Positions 15,874 through 24,232 of a stretch of DNA of 26,330 nt are shown piece by piece. Both the position numbers and the translations under genes were made by a program. The stretch is taken from positions 1-26,330 of the IMG/VR virus record IMGVR_UViG_3300041407_000002; one strand, 5' to 3'. Origin of the DNA: a virus. Position 1 is the first letter of the stretch, and every line of letters begins with the position of its first letter. The notes beneath the pieces are model-generated. The model worked only from the letters and a program-made list of their open reading frames with translations. It ran no database searches and was not told the DNA's origin.

Positions 15874-18800
15874 ATGGCTAAGAAAACCTACGCTGATGTT
15901 AAGGCTACTGGTACGGAATACGATGGCATGATCCGTGAGGCAGCGGACGCCAACGGTGTCAGTTATGACTACCTGCACAAGAAGATCTTCAATGAGTCGT
16001 CCTTCAATCCACAAGCTCAGAGCCCTACGGGGCCAAGAGGCTTGGGTCAGTTCACTCGTGCCACTGGGAAGGCCTACGGGCTCGTTACAGATGAGGACTT
16101 CTTTGACCCTGCCAAGTCTATCGGGGCCGCTGCGAAACACACTGCTGACCTCCTGAAGACCTACAAAGGGGACTACCTTAAGGCTGCCCTTGCGTACAAC
16201 CAAGGGAATGGCCGACTGGGTGCCCCTCAACTGGCTGCACTGGATCAAGGTGACTTCTCCAAGATCGCCCCTGAGGGTCGTCAGTACATGGCGAACCTTC
16301 TGGACGTGGCGGGTGACTCACCTTCCCGTAAATGGTTCGATGGGCCTGATGCCCCAAAGCAAACCGCTGAGTTCTTCAAGGCTACCCAAGGAACCTCAGC
16401 GACCTCTAAAGTGGAGCGAGGTAGCCTTGGTGATCGCTCTACGATGAACATGCAGACTCCCGGTGCGATCCCTCAATTAGAGAAGTCGTTCCGTGAGGTG
16501 GAGCTTGAACAGAACCCTGAGCATGACGCTTGGTACAACTCTGTCGAGTCCATGAAGTCTGCCCTTGCGACATCCCTTCCGGGTCAGATCTATCGGAACA
16601 TCTCCGTGGAAGACCATGACCCAATCGAATGGATGCAGGACACAGGCGACCGTGAGTGGACCCGTGAGGACTACGACCAGATCCGTAAGGAAGGAGTCGA
16701 TCCCCAGTTCTTCGGGTTCATTGGCGACTACACACGGTACGACAAGAAGAAGCTCCCAGAGGCCATCGCTCTCGCTAAAGAGAACATGGCTCACGACCAG
16801 ACTATGCGTCAGTCGGGCTGGGCTTCTCAGTTGGCTGCTGGTGGTGTCGGCGCATTGGTTGACCCACTGACCTACGTTCCTATCCCCGGCACCGCTCTGG
16901 GCTCCTTTGGGGCTCGTGTGGGTGCTCAAGCTGCCTTCTCTGGTGGCATGGCTGTAGCCGGTGAAGGAATCAAGGAAGCCACCACTGGGATCGAGGGTCA
17001 CTACCTTGGTGCTGCTGTGGGCGGTGCTGCAATTGGTGGCACCATGGCTGCTGTCTTGGATAAGTGGATCGCCAAGTCACTCGTTAAGCCAGGCCGTGAA
17101 GAGATGTCCGATGATGACCTCGAAAAGGTGCTCGCAATGCACGGTGATTCTGCCTTGCCAAACCAGCGAGTAGACCTTGAGGATGACATGCTTCCGCAAG
17201 CGCCAAAGGCTGAGGATGAGATGGACGATGAGTACCTCGAAAAGATCCTTGGGATGCACGGTGAGCGAAGCCACAAGCAAGAGGGCCGTAAGGAACTCCC
17301 TGACGATACCGTTGAGGGCATCCTTGCGCGCCACATGGAGGCCAGCCAACCGAACGAATTCGTGGGTCCAAGCGTCCGCTTACAGGCCCGTGAACAAGCG
17401 CGTCAAGCTGGTACTGAAGACCCTACCGTCATGCCTTGGAAAACCGATGAGGAGCCTCAGGAGGCCCTTGGGGTTGACTATGTGGATCACCCTTCGGAAC
17501 CCGGTGCGGTGCGTCTACGTGATGGTTCAATCCTTGGTGCTGCCAACCCTCTCAACCCAAAGCTGATCAAGGCGATGGCCGAGCTGGAACCTGAGCGGTC
17601 TGCTGCTGGGTTCCGCCTTGGTGGTCTCACTGAGATTGGCTTGACGTTGACTCGCTCAGAGGATGAGGAGTTGCGTGGTATTGGTGCCCAACTGTTCCGC
17701 TCCCCTGTGGGCGGTGAGTCAGGTTCCAACGGTAAGTTTGGCGCTGTGGCTGCTGACGTGATTGAGCGTGAGCGTGGGCAAGACCATGTGGCCCTCAATG
17801 CCATGGTGGAGGCTCAGCAAGAGGCCATGAAGGACATCTCTGTGAAGTCCCTGCCCGGTGGCCGTCAGGCTCAGCGTGAGCATGTGGATCGTCGGATCGC
17901 TGAAGCTATCGAAGACCCTACCGGGACCAAGATGGGCAAGCTGACCGAGGCCGAGAAGAACTACGCCAAGGTTGTTGAGGATCACTTCATCCGCAAGGAG
18001 GAGTCCCTTGAGAACCCAGCGATGTACGGCAACATGGATGCTGTGTCGATCATGCCAGCGACCCGTCACTCTGGTCGGTACATTCCGAACATCTATGACG
18101 ATGCCATCAAGCTTCTCAACATCCAACGCTTCGGTGGCCCTGAGGGGCTCCAGAAGGCAATCGTTGAAAGCTGGATGGCGAGCTACCTAAGTCGTCCTGC
18201 CGTCCGCACCCGGATCGACAAGATGATCAAGGAAGGCATCGAGAAGGGCGGCAAAGTGGCAACCCCAGAGGAACTCAAAAAGGCGGTCGTGGAGTACGCC
18301 CATAACAAGGCGTTTGGTATTAGCCACACGGCTGACTTCAACCGCTCCTCGCTGATCGACGATAACCTCGAAGGTCTGGTGGGTCAGGAGGCTAATAACT
18401 TCCTCGAAGGTCGCCACCTCTTTGACTCCGACATGGCTGTTCAACTCAGTGATGGGACCACCTTCTCTGTGAATGATCTGCGCACCTTCGATGTCCCTCA
18501 GATCACCTCCTCGTACAACCGTCGAGTGAATGGCGACATCGGGATCATGGCTGCCACTGGTAAGGACACCAAGGCTCTCAAGGACGCGATCCTCAAGATC
18601 AAATCCAAGAAGGGCAACACCATGGAAGTGGAAGCCTTGCAGGAGTCCATCAAGCTGCTCACCGGGCGGTCTCGACGGGACCCTGACAGCGCTGCCGCAA
18701 CGTTCGCTCGTGCCTTGACTGACGTATCGTTCGCCACCAAGAACGCCTACATGGGCGTCCAGAACCTCACAGAGGTCGCTGGGTTGATCACTAAGGGCCA

Positions 18801-20058
18801 CACACGGATGCTCATGAAGGGTGTCCCGTTCCTGCGTGAGATGACCACTTGGGGCACCAAGATCAAACCTGAGCAACTGGCTGACATGCACAACATGATC
18901 TTCGGTCGGGAACTGGATGATCTCATCCGGCCTCGCCGTAGCGACATCGTTGATCGCTTGCGGAACCAAGGCAGCGGCAAGCTCGTGGCTAACGCTGTGG
19001 GCACCTTGAAGTTCGCCACTGGTGAGGTAGCAGCTCGTTCGCCATTCACCAAGTTCCTCACTGAGACCTCCAACTACATCATGGACGCTGGTCGTCAAGG
19101 TGCTCTGGTGGACCTCGTGAATCACTCGCTATCTGGGAAGCCCTCTAAGTTGTTCTCGAAGGAACGGCTCCACGCGATGTCGATCACCGAGGCTCAGTTT
19201 GGTGACATGCGGAACGCTCTCAAGGAGCATCTCGTGGCTGATCCTAAAGGTGGCTTTAAGGTCCGTGACCGGGCGAAGTTCCAGCAAGACCCTCGGGTGA
19301 TGGACATCTGGCGGATGGGTGACAAGGTGGCGGATGAAACCGTGCTGCGTCCTCACAAGCTGAGTAACTCCGACTCCATCGCTCAGAACGCTTGGATGAA
19401 GCTGGCCATGCAATTCAAGAACTTTGTCTTCCGTTCCGTGAATGGTCGCCTCGTGAGAGGTGTCTACAACGCCACCAAGAACAAGCAGGCCATCGACCAG
19501 ACCATGCAAGTGGGGATCTCTCTGGGCCTCGCTGCGAGCTTCTATGTGGCGCAACGCTACGTTCAAGCTCAGGGGATGCCTAAAGAAGAACGTCGAGACT
19601 TCCTCAAGCGCTCTCTGGATATGAACATGATTGCCTATGCCGCTGCATCGCGTAGCTCTCACGTTGGTTCCCCACTGGGCATTGCGAACTTCGCTATGGC
19701 CCCTCTGGGCTTCGATGCGGCTGCTGCTGTGCGTACCTCTGTGCTCCCTCGTGGGCCTCAGTACAGCGAGCGTAACAAGGCCGTGAAGTATTCCCCATTG
19801 CGCTCATCGGGCATTCAAGACTTCCAGTCGAGGCTCCTTGAGCAAGTGCCTGGGGTTGGTGTCCTTGGGTCGATCTATCAGGCTGGTTCCGGCACCGCTG
19901 GGCTCATGCGTGAAGAAGGTCGCTCCATGGACCAGCAATACAAGGCTTCCCTCTACAACGGTTTACGCAACCTCATCCCTAACGACCCAGTGTCGCAACG
20001 GGCTCTCAATGCGCTCATGCAGGAACAAGGCATGGAGTACGGGAAGCGCGGTCGCTAA
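15874..20058 (+). CDS. 16: Internal core / ejection protein gp16 with lytic transglycosylase domain
   Basis: 1394 residues, longer than T7 gp16 (1318). Residues about 15-145 are a lysozyme-like transglycosylase: EYDGMIREAADANGVSYDYL, catalytic E41 in FNESSF, GPRGLGQFT (about 52-60) and LAYNQGNGRLG (about 108-118). T7 gp16 has E37 in WTESRF at this point. It cuts peptidoglycan locally so DNA can pass. The remainder matches T7 gp16 (for example VDPLTYVPIPG at about 329-339, GFRLGGLTEIGL at about 578-590, KFGAVAADVIERE) and forms the inner-membrane part of the ejection channel. Residues about 408-492 hold an insertion with three degenerate repeats, annotated separately. AGGAGG precedes ATG; the TAA is part of the next promoter. 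Confidence 0.97.
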   Translation: MAKKTYADVKATGTEYDGMIREAADANGVSYDYLHKKIFNESSFNPQAQSPTGPRGLGQFTRATGKAYGLVTDEDFFDPAKSIGAAAKHTADLLKTYKGDYLKAALAYNQGNGRLGAPQLAALDQGDFSKIAPEGRQYMANLLDVAGDSPSRKWFDGPDAPKQTAEFFKATQGTSATSKVERGSLGDRSTMNMQTPGAIPQLEKSFREVELEQNPEHDAWYNSVESMKSALATSLPGQIYRNISVEDHDPIEWMQDTGDREWTREDYDQIRKEGVDPQFFGFIGDYTRYDKKKLPEAIALAKENMAHDQTMRQSGWASQLAAGGVGALVDPLTYVPIPGTALGSFGARVGAQAAFSGGMAVAGEGIKEATTGIEGHYLGAAVGGAAIGGTMAAVLDKWIAKSLVKPGREEMSDDDLEKVLAMHGDSALPNQRVDLEDDMLPQAPKAEDEMDDEYLEKILGMHGERSHKQEGRKELPDDTVEGILARHMEASQPNEFVGPSVRLQAREQARQAGTEDPTVMPWKTDEEPQEALGVDYVDHPSEPGAVRLRDGSILGAANPLNPKLIKAMAELEPERSAAGFRLGGLTEIGLTLTRSEDEELRGIGAQLFRSPVGGESGSNGKFGAVAADVIERERGQDHVALNAMVEAQQEAMKDISVKSLPGGRQAQREHVDRRIAEAIEDPTGTKMGKLTEAEKNYAKVVEDHFIRKEESLENPAMYGNMDAVSIMPATRHSGRYIPNIYDDAIKLLNIQRFGGPEGLQKAIVESWMASYLSRPAVRTRIDKMIKEGIEKGGKVATPEELKKAVVEYAHNKAFGISHTADFNRSSLIDDNLEGLVGQEANNFLEGRHLFDSDMAVQLSDGTTFSVNDLRTFDVPQITSSYNRRVNGDIGIMAATGKDTKALKDAILKIKSKKGNTMEVEALQESIKLLTGRSRRDPDSAAATFARALTDVSFATKNAYMGVQNLTEVAGLITKGHTRMLMKGVPFLREMTTWGTKIKPEQLADMHNMIFGRELDDLIRPRRSDIVDRLRNQGSGKLVANAVGTLKFATGEVAARSPFTKFLTETSNYIMDAGRQGALVDLVNHSLSGKPSKLFSKERLHAMSITEAQFGDMRNALKEHLVADPKGGFKVRDRAKFQQDPRVMDIWRMGDKVADETVLRPHKLSNSDSIAQNAWMKLAMQFKNFVFRSVNGRLVRGVYNATKNKQAIDQTMQVGISLGLAASFYVAQRYVQAQGMPKEERRDFLKRSLDMNMIAYAAASRSSHVGSPLGIANFAMAPLGFDAAAAVRTSVLPRGPQYSERNKAVKYSPLRSSGIQDFQSRLLEQVPGVGVLGSIYQAGSGTAGLMREEGRSMDQQYKASLYNGLRNLIPNDPVSQRALNALMQEQGMEYGKRGR
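17104..17346 (+). repeat. Three-copy degenerate repeat inside gp16
   Basis: Protein residues 411-426 (MSDDDLEKVLAMHGDS), 450-465 (MDDEYLEKILGMHGER) and about 476-491 (PDDTVEGILARHMEAS) share the pattern DD-x-x-(L/V)-E-(K/G)-(I/V)-L-x-x-H. Copies one and two also share DNA, with CCTCGAAAAG and ATGCACGGTGA. They are separated by acidic or charged linkers. As I recall T7 gp16, the flanking conserved sequence (ending at the EFVGPSVRLQARE-like block) is joined directly, so this looks like an inserted, internally duplicated module. Confidence 0.75.
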
Positions 20059-22515: not shown

Positions 22516-24232
22516 CCTCGAACGAATCAAGAAAAGCTTTATCCTGTTCCTCTTTGTCTTATGGCGAGCCCTGAATCTTCCCAAGCCAACCAAGTGTCAA
22601 ATCGACATGGCTGCGAAGCTCTCCAGTGGCGACCAGCGCCGCTTTATCCTTCAAGCATTCCGAGGTATTGGCAAGTCCTTCATCACCTGCGCATTCGTCG
22701 TATGGAAGCTGTGGGGCAACCCAGACCTCAAGTTCATGATCGTGTCTGCCTCCAAAGAGCGGGCGGATGCGAACAGCATCTTCATCAAGCGCATCATTGA
22801 GCTTCTCCCATTCCTCCATGAGTTGAAGCCACGAGCCGGTCAACGAGACTCCGCTCTGGCCTTCGACGTGGGGCCCGCTAAGCCTGACCACTCACCCTCG
22901 GTGAAGTCGGTTGGTATCACCGGGCAGCTCACAGGTAGTCGCGCTGACATCCTCATCGCGGATGACGTGGAGGTTCCGAACAACTCTGGGACCCAGGCAT
23001 CACGCGATCACCTCGGAGAACTCGTTAAGGAGTTCGATGCGATCCTGAAGCCCGGTGGAACGATCATCTATCTGGGCACCCCTCAGACCGAGATGACCCT
23101 CTACAGGGAGCTGGAAGGCCGTGGCTACGTCACTACCATCTGGCCTGCGAGATACCCTAAGGATCAGAAGGACTGGGAGTCCTACGGGCCCCGGCTGGCT
23201 CCTATGCTTCAAGCTGAGCTGATGACGGATGAGGGCCTCTTCTGGCAACCAACCGACCCGGTTCGCTTCGATGACAAGGATCTGCGTGAGCGGGAACTCT
23301 CATACGGGAAAGGTGGCTTCGCCCTCCAGTTCATGCTCAATCCTAACCTGAGTGACGCTGAGAAATACCCTCTGAAACTGCGTGACTTCATCGTGGGCAC
23401 GTTTGACATGATGAAAGGACCAACCACCTTGACTTGGATGCCAAACGCCTCTAACGAGGTCAAGGGGGTTCCTCTGGTGGGCCTCAAAGGTGACCGCTTC
23501 CATCGCTATGAGGGTGTCGGTCAATCCACTGCGCACTACGCTCAGAAGGTCCTTGTGATCGACCCAAGTGGCCGTGGCAAGGATGAGACTGGTTATGCAG
23601 TGCTGTACCAACTCAACGGCTACATCTTCCTGATGGACGCTGGAGGCTTCCGTGGGGGCTATGAGGACACCACTCTGCAATCCCTTGCGAACATCGCCAA
23701 GATGTTCAAGGTCAACGAGGTGGTGATCGAGGGCAACTTTGGTGACGGTATGTACCTGAAGCTATTCAGCCCTGTGATGACCGCTACGTACCCTTGCGCG
23801 ATCACTGAGGTCAAGTCCAAGGGTCAGAAGGAAATGCGCATCTGTGACGTTCTGGAGCCCGTACTGGGCAGCCATAAGCTGGTACTCAGCGAGGACCTCA
23901 TTGATAAGGACTACCGGACGGCTCTCAACAACGATGGCACCACTGACACCAAGTACAGCCTCCTCTATCAGCTCACCCGGATCACCCGTGAGCGTGGCTC
24001 TCTGGCCCACGATGACCGACTCGATGCTCTGGCTATCGGTGTCCAGTTCTTTGTGGAATCCATGGAGAAGGACTCGAAGGTGGGTGAGTCGGAGATGATG
24101 CAGGAGTTCCTTGAGGCTCAAATGGAGAACCAACTGATGGGCTTTGAGGACATCCGTAGGATCTCTGTGAGTGAGTCGGTGGATATCTACTACGAGGATG
24201 ATGGGTCCATGAGCAACTACATGGGCTGGTAG
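22493..24232 (+). CDS. 19: Large terminase subunit gp19 (DNA packaging ATPase-nuclease)
   Basis: 579 residues; T7 gp19 has about 586. The ATPase domain has Walker [10 protein letters not shown] (55-63, K61) and Walker B ILIADDVE (153-160, D157, D158, E160), then the coupling region YLGTPQTE (193-200). The nuclease domain has D357 in [19 protein letters not shown]413 in [11 protein letters not shown], and the D507/D508/D511 cluster in [11 protein letters not shown]. It pumps DNA into the prohead through gp8 and cuts concatemers to make the genome ends. AAGGAG precedes ATG 22493, which lies inside the end of Rz. It is the last gene of the gene 17 transcript. Confidence 0.97.

Follow-up and report, generated by a model that had tools for sequence, protein, structure and literature searches.

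A conserved, copy-variable repeat array inserted in gp16 of gh-1-like phages and its possible role as a set of docking motifs

What is an acidic stretch carrying three similar short motifs doing in gp16, at a point where the protein of bacteriophage T7 has seven residues, and is it a genuine feature of a phage lineage? The question is raised by a virus record of 26,330 bases, analysed as one stretch (the window), which encodes a gp16 of the gh-1 (Ghunavirus) type. The protein matches phrog_342 ("internal virion protein with endolysin domain") over residues 5–1388 (1015 bits, E 0) and, among PDB sequences, the T7 gp16 chains 7eyb and 6yt5 (E<1e-299); gp13-, gp14-, and gp15-like genes lie upstream in that order (phrog_308, phrog_805, and phrog_1339; also PF11090 and PF24072). 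It is 91.5% identical overall to gp16 of the Ghunavirus Kompost-2 and is a new member of the Ghunavirus-type gp16 set. With T7 gp16 (PDB 7eyb, 9jyy, 7k5c, 6yt5) it shares the SLT domain, the hydrophobic region, and the C-terminal hub, at an identity of 38% on the N-side and 44% on the C-side of the linker that separates the last two. Judged by hydropathy of the sequence only, peaks occur at residues 320–338, 345–363, and 377–395, and further ones at 1207–1225 and 1268–1286. The features of the locus are collected in Table 1.

Table 1. Features of the gp16 locus in the window; the E-values of the repeat copies are not independent, since the 19-residue repeat HMM was trained partly on units from these genes
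Feature	Position	Strand	Residues and basis
gp16 homologue (internal virion protein D, ejectosome/transglycosylase)	15874..20058	+	1394 aa; gh-1 (Ghunavirus) type; ORF and profile matches
SLT transglycosylase domain	15928..16221	+	gp16 residues 19–116; PF01464.25, E 2e-19
Last hydrophobic segment ahead of the insert	17002..17058	+	residues 377–395; region equivalent to T7 "TMH I"; top 19-residue hydropathy of the protein, 1.54
Insert relative to T7 gp16	17089..17349	+	residues ~406–492; T7 has 7 residues (415–421); alignments
Repeat copy 1	17098..17154	+	residues 409–427 (EEMSDDDLEKVLAMHGDSA); repeat HMM domain E 3e-10
Acidic linker 1	17155..17214	+	predicted low-confidence coil, pLDDT below 50; pN/pS 0.67 (residues 425–449, 19 genes)
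Repeat copy 2	17215..17271	+	residues 448–466 (DEMDDEYLEKILGMHGERS); repeat HMM domain E 5e-10; copy with the strongest conservation
Repeat copy 3	17290..17346	+	residues 473–491 (KELPDDTVEGILARHMEAS); repeat HMM domain E 5e-8
Conserved C-terminal part	17350..20055	+	restarts at PNEF...RLQARE (T7 D422/N423); counterpart of the cytoplasmic hub and the second membrane region in the T7 model

An insertion of three acidic repeats relative to T7 had been proposed from the letters of the window, and in its main features this proposal holds. In a phmmer comparison, window residues 12–398 and 479–1390 align with T7 gp16, T7 residue 408 standing at both joins, and the multiple alignment places the insert between T7 residues ~414 and 422, with about 87 residues and three motif copies as against seven residues in T7; measured over the whole linker, 102 residues stand against 22, a net difference of 80. 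The consensus given in the original prediction is too long by one residue for copies 1 and 3; in register the motif reads M-x-D-x-x-(L/V)-E-x-(I/V)-L-x-x-H, copy 3 having L in place of M. Among 20,000 shuffles of gp16, seven contained at least one motif and none contained two or more, and the likeness of copy 3 to copies 1 and 2 was equalled by one in 20,000 shuffles of copy 3 itself. A looser pattern, run over all six frames of the window, returned the three gp16 copies and one isolated site at 23846. The acidic character stands as well: 85 residues include 25 D/E and 10 K/R, and no other 100-residue stretch of the protein is as negative as the one beginning at residue 409. The insert is thus confirmed as real and as conserved in its phage lineage.

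Identity between copies 1 and 2 at the DNA level had been put forward as a sign of duplication. It amounts to 73% over 48 nt, where 67% would be expected from the peptides and this gene's codon use (p=0.084; the same codon at eight of nine shared residues), so that it offers at best a hint of duplication and the claim does not stand in that form. The similarity of the copies at the protein level does indicate a duplication, and an old one, because copy 2 compared between 19 phages (83% DNA identity) is closer than copies 1 and 2 within one phage (65% on average).

The array proved to be distributed in a lineage-specific manner. In a first alignment of 20 gp16 proteins, three copies were present in 10 of gh-1 type (the window included), one copy in UNO-SLW1, phi-S1, and Pf17397_F_PD1, and none in seven phages (T7, YeO3-12, FE44, PP47, ICP3, CR44b, and EcoP-R1), with YeO3-12, a Teetrevirus, standing in for T3, whose own gp16 lay outside the alignment. 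The repeats are therefore absent from T7, and the comparison of repeat number called for by the original prediction gives one or three copies in the clade of gh-1-like phages and their relatives and none in the T7-side phages aligned. Ghunavirus gp16 proteins (gh-1, phiPsa17, and Kompost-2) bear the three-copy array at the same place as the window, differing from it by sequence drift and by a few residues in the length of linker 1, whereas those of Pifdecavirus, Phutvirus, and Pijolavirus (phi-S1, PPpW-4, and PspYZU08) have the motif at the same site in one copy, without linkers 1 and 2. A tblastn search of 50,697 phage records with the 100-aa segment returned 136 records at E up to 10, 133 of them named Pseudomonas phages and one each named after Dickeya, Xanthomonas, and Salmonella; 60 of the 136 were inspected row by row, the Salmonella and Xanthomonas rows lying outside those 60. 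The match in the Dickeya phage spans 94% of the segment, and, with regard to Xanthomonas, Laurelin has a gh-1-like gp16. The whole gp16 was matched in 137 Pseudomonas records. The best 12 of 1206 matches of a related gp16 with another insert (L146) are topped by 3MF5 (two records), phTUNSv, and phTUNSm, four records that could account for the difference between 137 and 133; of these, the 3MF5 sequence was read, and no motif was found in its gp16 when the insert was inspected by eye.

A larger set of 144 gp16 rows was assembled from IMG/VR scans (two of them limited to 80 loci each) and phage loci, some contigs being present twice. Over these partly redundant rows the repeat HMM counts three copies in 37, one in 26, and none in 81, one of the latter (L137) stopping short of the insert site; rows with two or four copies were not found among the 144. 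For a tree, the 132 rows of more than 1000 aa were dereplicated at 97% to 82, and residues 500–1388, which exclude the insert, were used; this was a quick tree with SH-aLRT as its sole measure of support, and copy states were assigned to it by eye, the repeat HMM agreeing for the rows checked. The unit pattern missed copy 3 of L054 and L056, both of which the HMM finds. The 38 rows of the array clade are separated by a branch with SH-aLRT 99; they comprise 22 with three copies, 14 with one, one with one copy plus a fragment, and one without, so that at least one copy is retained in 37 of 38. Another branch with SH-aLRT 99 sets apart 39 zero-copy rows, and five rows with other inserts group weakly (SH-aLRT 21). 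As far as these sequences go, the array is a trait shared within a single T7-like phage clade. The insert site is also the most length-variable site of gp16, with a range of 94 residues over 81 rows, the next site reaching 26.

Within the clade, copy number is not fixed. The vB_PaeM-G11-like subclade shows four array states in seven rows, and in each of the sister pairs L054/L058, L053/L057, and L056/L068 the two members differ in state; L054 has three copies and L058 one, yet the two are 92–93% identical on either side of the linker, and the plaque-forming vB_PaeM-G11 itself has a one-copy form like that of L058. By these comparisons, the copy number of the array is changing while the remainder of gp16 is kept. 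The argument that L054 and L058 differ in the array alone was dropped, for some 1.07 kb interrupts the gp14 frame on the L058 contig. This interruption (L131:1035-2099) has a few codons repeated on both sides and looks insertion-like; Rfam gave no match to it and Pfam none above cut-off for the frame inside, and the L058 contig is possibly a prophage in decay. Ghunavirus and L053, L054, and L056 have three-copy arrays of the same order that share the spacer HGER-x5-G after copy 2, which suggests a single three-copy ancestor and later contraction; because the deepest branches of the clade are unsupported (58 and 69), three-copy as opposed to one-copy ancestry is put forward here only as an inference.

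Relatives were also found in bacterial genomes. All six confirmed relatives in GTDB genomes sit within Pseudomonas contigs of 121–537 kb and are for this reason taken for prophages. Five of them carry one or three copies, and the sixth, from P. fildesensis (L068, which is identical to L228 over 6651 nt and was counted once), has an open gp16 frame without the motif; in its relative L060, two GACCT pentamers enclose 27 residues that are missing here. The P. fildesensis gp16 is a mosaic: its identity to L060 is 96.8% ahead of the linker and 71.9% beyond it. Since the P. fildesensis prophage, seen as sequence only, and phage 3MF5 are both devoid of the motif, the array does not appear to be required for Pseudomonas as such. 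The P. fildesensis genome set also holds a second, divergent T7-like gp16 (L235:4216-8127 on G006:C24; 1304 aa) with a short linker and no array, and on a P. petrae contig (L227/L238) the prophage gp16 frame is broken, its open frame of 1055 aa having a start out of frame with the family. Host adaptation, in the simple form of a copy number tied to the host, was rejected: on the same P. putida KT2440/Paw85 host, Kompost-2, Kallioja, and Mudajogi have three-copy genes, and eight records (H151–H158) have tblastn matches that cover copy 1 only, as judged by match extent and not by reading the sequences.

Outside gp16 the array was not encountered in the collections searched. A pattern of 15 fixed bases for LE-x-(I/V)-LA-x-HGE, which misses the leucine codons TTA and TTG, returned 30 stretches from IMG/VR. 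Nine were translated, seven of them single unrelated matches without an array and two gp16 of the clade; the remaining 21 were assigned to gp16 by contig, these contigs having been found in the gp16 scans, and were not re-read at the pattern. The 38-aa stretch of copies 2–3 gave three weak matches (E 2–7) in the plasmid collection, and the 100-aa segment gave none at E up to 10 among PDB sequences. In six Pseudomonas genomes the repeat HMM found gp16 in five, the sixth being the one with the motif-less prophage; host mimicry was rejected, the best match other than gp16 having an E of 0.1, which is not significant. That match, in a host Slt-like lytic transglycosylase (L237, G001:C8), bears SDQEVEKFLAEHGDLP; frames of a length similar to the Slt-like transglycosylase were hit in three other genomes at E 0.33, 0.9, and 2.4, and among these host matches the sequence was read for the E 0.1 transglycosylase only. 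In the open-access literature, an insert or repeats in gp16 of Pseudomonas phages were absent from the titles and abstract starts of the matches listed, and a short-motif array in a phage ejection protein was likewise unnamed there.

Whether the array is under constraint can be gauged from 19 three-copy genes, for which pN/pS values—pooled pairwise figures without a significance test—rise from 0.208 in the SLT domain through 0.249 in the helices of the repeats and 0.389 in the hub to 0.554 in the linkers. Taken copy by copy, the helix values are 0.272, 0.109, and 0.414, so that copy 3 by itself is under no tighter constraint than the hub. Each of the 19 genes keeps the motif's D, E, L, and H unchanged in every one of its three copies. 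Among 63 distinct units (81 HMM hits in 37 rows), D5 is kept in 60, E9 in 57, L12 in 61, and H15 in 62, a count that leans towards conservation, the HMM having been seeded from pattern-picked units that limit E9, L12, and H15. AlphaFold2, run on gp16 residues 196–1394 with 65 sequences (mean pLDDT 69, pTM 0.63), predicts short helices at 413–422, 453–461, and 480–489, flanked by a helix at 377–402 before the insert and one at 497–512 after it. pLDDT falls below 50 for 424–482 and 484–492, with helix 1 close to 50 and most of helices 2 and 3 under that value; the helicity of the repeat copies is consequently a weak prediction, and the insert is predicted to be a disordered tether with no domain. 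Outside the insert, the model matches 9jyy (Z 23.1) and 7eyb (Z 18.4), both of the T7 core, as well as phages E1004 (9vvp, Z 17.7) and PhiM1 (8vb2, Z 11.6), the best unrelated structure reaching 6.1; the rmsd to the T7 structures is high (24–25 Å), which we think arises from a differing placement of domains in the model.

Tandem arrays of short linear motifs in disordered regions are characterized by conserved short cores, relaxed linkers, and changing copy number. The gp16 insert resembles such arrays in its constrained cores within relaxed linkers, its predicted disorder, and its change of copy number, and a docking function is the putative one. Swanson, Hou and Cingolani (2022, PMC8954989) assign T7 gp16 residues 243–410 to TMH I and 411–1118 to a cytoplasmic hub that binds DNA and whose mutants alter genome entry; the topology of the T7 ejectosome is itself a model built from low-resolution maps. 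Mapped onto that model, the insert would lie at the boundary of TMH I and the cytoplasmic hub. The constrained cores, the relaxed linkers, the absence of a predicted domain, the copy change between relatives, and this position together favour a reading of the insert as a row of docking motifs, each a short amphipathic helix, along a disordered acidic tether that lies between the first membrane region and the hub, and the binding tag of the original prediction is thus the best-fitting reading of the sequence data and the structural model. On ejection of gp16, TMH I would cross the inner membrane and the hub would enter the cytoplasm as modelled for T7, so that the array would be exposed at the inner membrane on its cytoplasmic side, a placement that holds insofar as the T7 topology can be carried over to this gp16. 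There the helices, each through its D-x-x-φ-E-x-φ-L-x-x-H face, may all recognize one kind of site on a partner, and additional copies might add avidity or reach; candidate partners are a host membrane or cytoplasmic protein and the phage's own hub. A docking-motif array displayed to a putative partner on the cytoplasmic side after ejection is given a probability of roughly 0.4.

Several other explanations have to be set beside it, chief among them, and itself rather doubtful, that the helices act before ejection and clip gp16 to gp15, gp14, or other gp16 molecules in the core stack. Specific, conserved helix faces would suit any protein partner, gp16 stands at the top of the T7 core (PMC8954989), and it is abundant in virions of the three-copy phage phiPsa17, with 232 peptides and 86% coverage (PMC4517105). 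On the other side, gp15 indels do not track the array in the sister pairs: gp15 of L054/L058 (93.6% identical) and of L053/L057 (85.6%) aligns with no gap and that of L056/L068 (68.1%) with one, a comparison of indels alone that speaks weakly against gp15 as the partner. For gp14 the identity is 85% in L053/L057 and 69% in L056/L068, the gp14 frame of L058 being interrupted. Next in order, an unlikely possibility, comes the view that charge is what matters, the insert acting as an acidic gate or DNA mimic that neutralizes the hub's basic DNA-binding surface and tunes the clamping and release of the first stretch of the genome. The DNA binding and the mutant phenotypes reported for the T7 hub agree with this, as do the net charge of three-copy linkers (-10 to -15, against -2 to +2 in the zero-copy linkers of the T7 side) and the acidity of unrelated inserts at the same site; charge does not, however, explain an L and an H that are invariant in each copy of 19 genes, and within the insert constraint is weakest in the linkers, where part of the charge resides.

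That nothing but length is selected, or nothing at all, the array being repeat growth tolerated in a flexible linker, is slightly more doubtful still. The outstanding length variability of the site, the different copy numbers of close relatives, and the 27 residues missing from one prophage between the positions of the GACCT pentamers are what such a passive spacer would lead one to expect; against it stand a pooled pN/pS of the helices that is less than half that of the linkers and below that of the hub (copy 3 alone being the exception), the retention of at least one copy in nearly every clade row, and copy numbers of 0, 1, or 3 but never 2 in the 144 partly redundant rows. An ordinary element of the gp16 fold, lost on the T7 side, is improbable: an array or a remnant of one is present in all 38 clade rows, and with the root of the family unsettled a loss on the T7 side could have occurred, but no copy is found in the 39 T7-side rows or in the five rows with other inserts, a stable fold is not predicted, and the segment has no counterpart in the PDB search. 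Alignment as ordinary fold elements, which would have counted against the original prediction, was not seen in the sequences compared. Least probable of all is a site at which gp16 is cleaved in the virion or on ejection. A predicted exposed and disordered position would suit such a site; the one-copy gp16 of vB_PaeM-G11 is among the virion gel bands matched by size, at its expected 146.16 kDa (PMC10142737), and the spacing of the conserved residues is that of a helix face.

Inserts of another kind occur at the same site. In gp16 of the Warsawvirus 3MF5 and of the IMG/VR loci L144, L146, and L150, the insert carries short repeats (LEGE, IEGE, LEGD) of an unrelated motif, read as PLEGELLGPE...GPIEGELG in 3MF5 and PLEGDFLGPE...GPIEGEY in L146; the repeat HMM finds no copy in L144, L146, and L150, and 3MF5 was judged by eye. 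Together with those of L148 and L160, which are placed less surely, these IMG/VR inserts are acidic (-2 to -8), and AlphaFold2 renders that of L146 (37 sequences) as coil with a pLDDT near 32. It is conceivable, though on balance improbable, that the junction of membrane region and hub is a plug-in slot for independently acquired acidic repeats—the D-x-x-φ-E-x-φ-L-x-x-H helix in the main Pseudomonas clade, LEGE/IEGE repeats in Warsawvirus—which hook a host factor and whose copy number tunes the contact. If this were true, it would concern the first contact between phage and host proteins in the cytoplasm, at the inner membrane. What is known of the way gp16 engages the inner membrane and the cytoplasm while a T7-type genome enters comes from low-resolution maps and models alone, and a conserved, copy-variable array at the boundary constitutes a defined handle: with natural alleles of zero, one, and three copies in related phages, the cytoplasmic contacts of the ejectosome become testable.

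Further variation was seen in passing. The loci noted for the LEGE/IEGE/LEGD type of insert include L222:104-4219. In the set of rows L016, L017, and L019, gp16 of ICP3 is short (1127 aa), and two Kayfunavirus gp16 proteins have a different N-terminus (NNPGN), their tblastn match beginning at query residue 158 or later.
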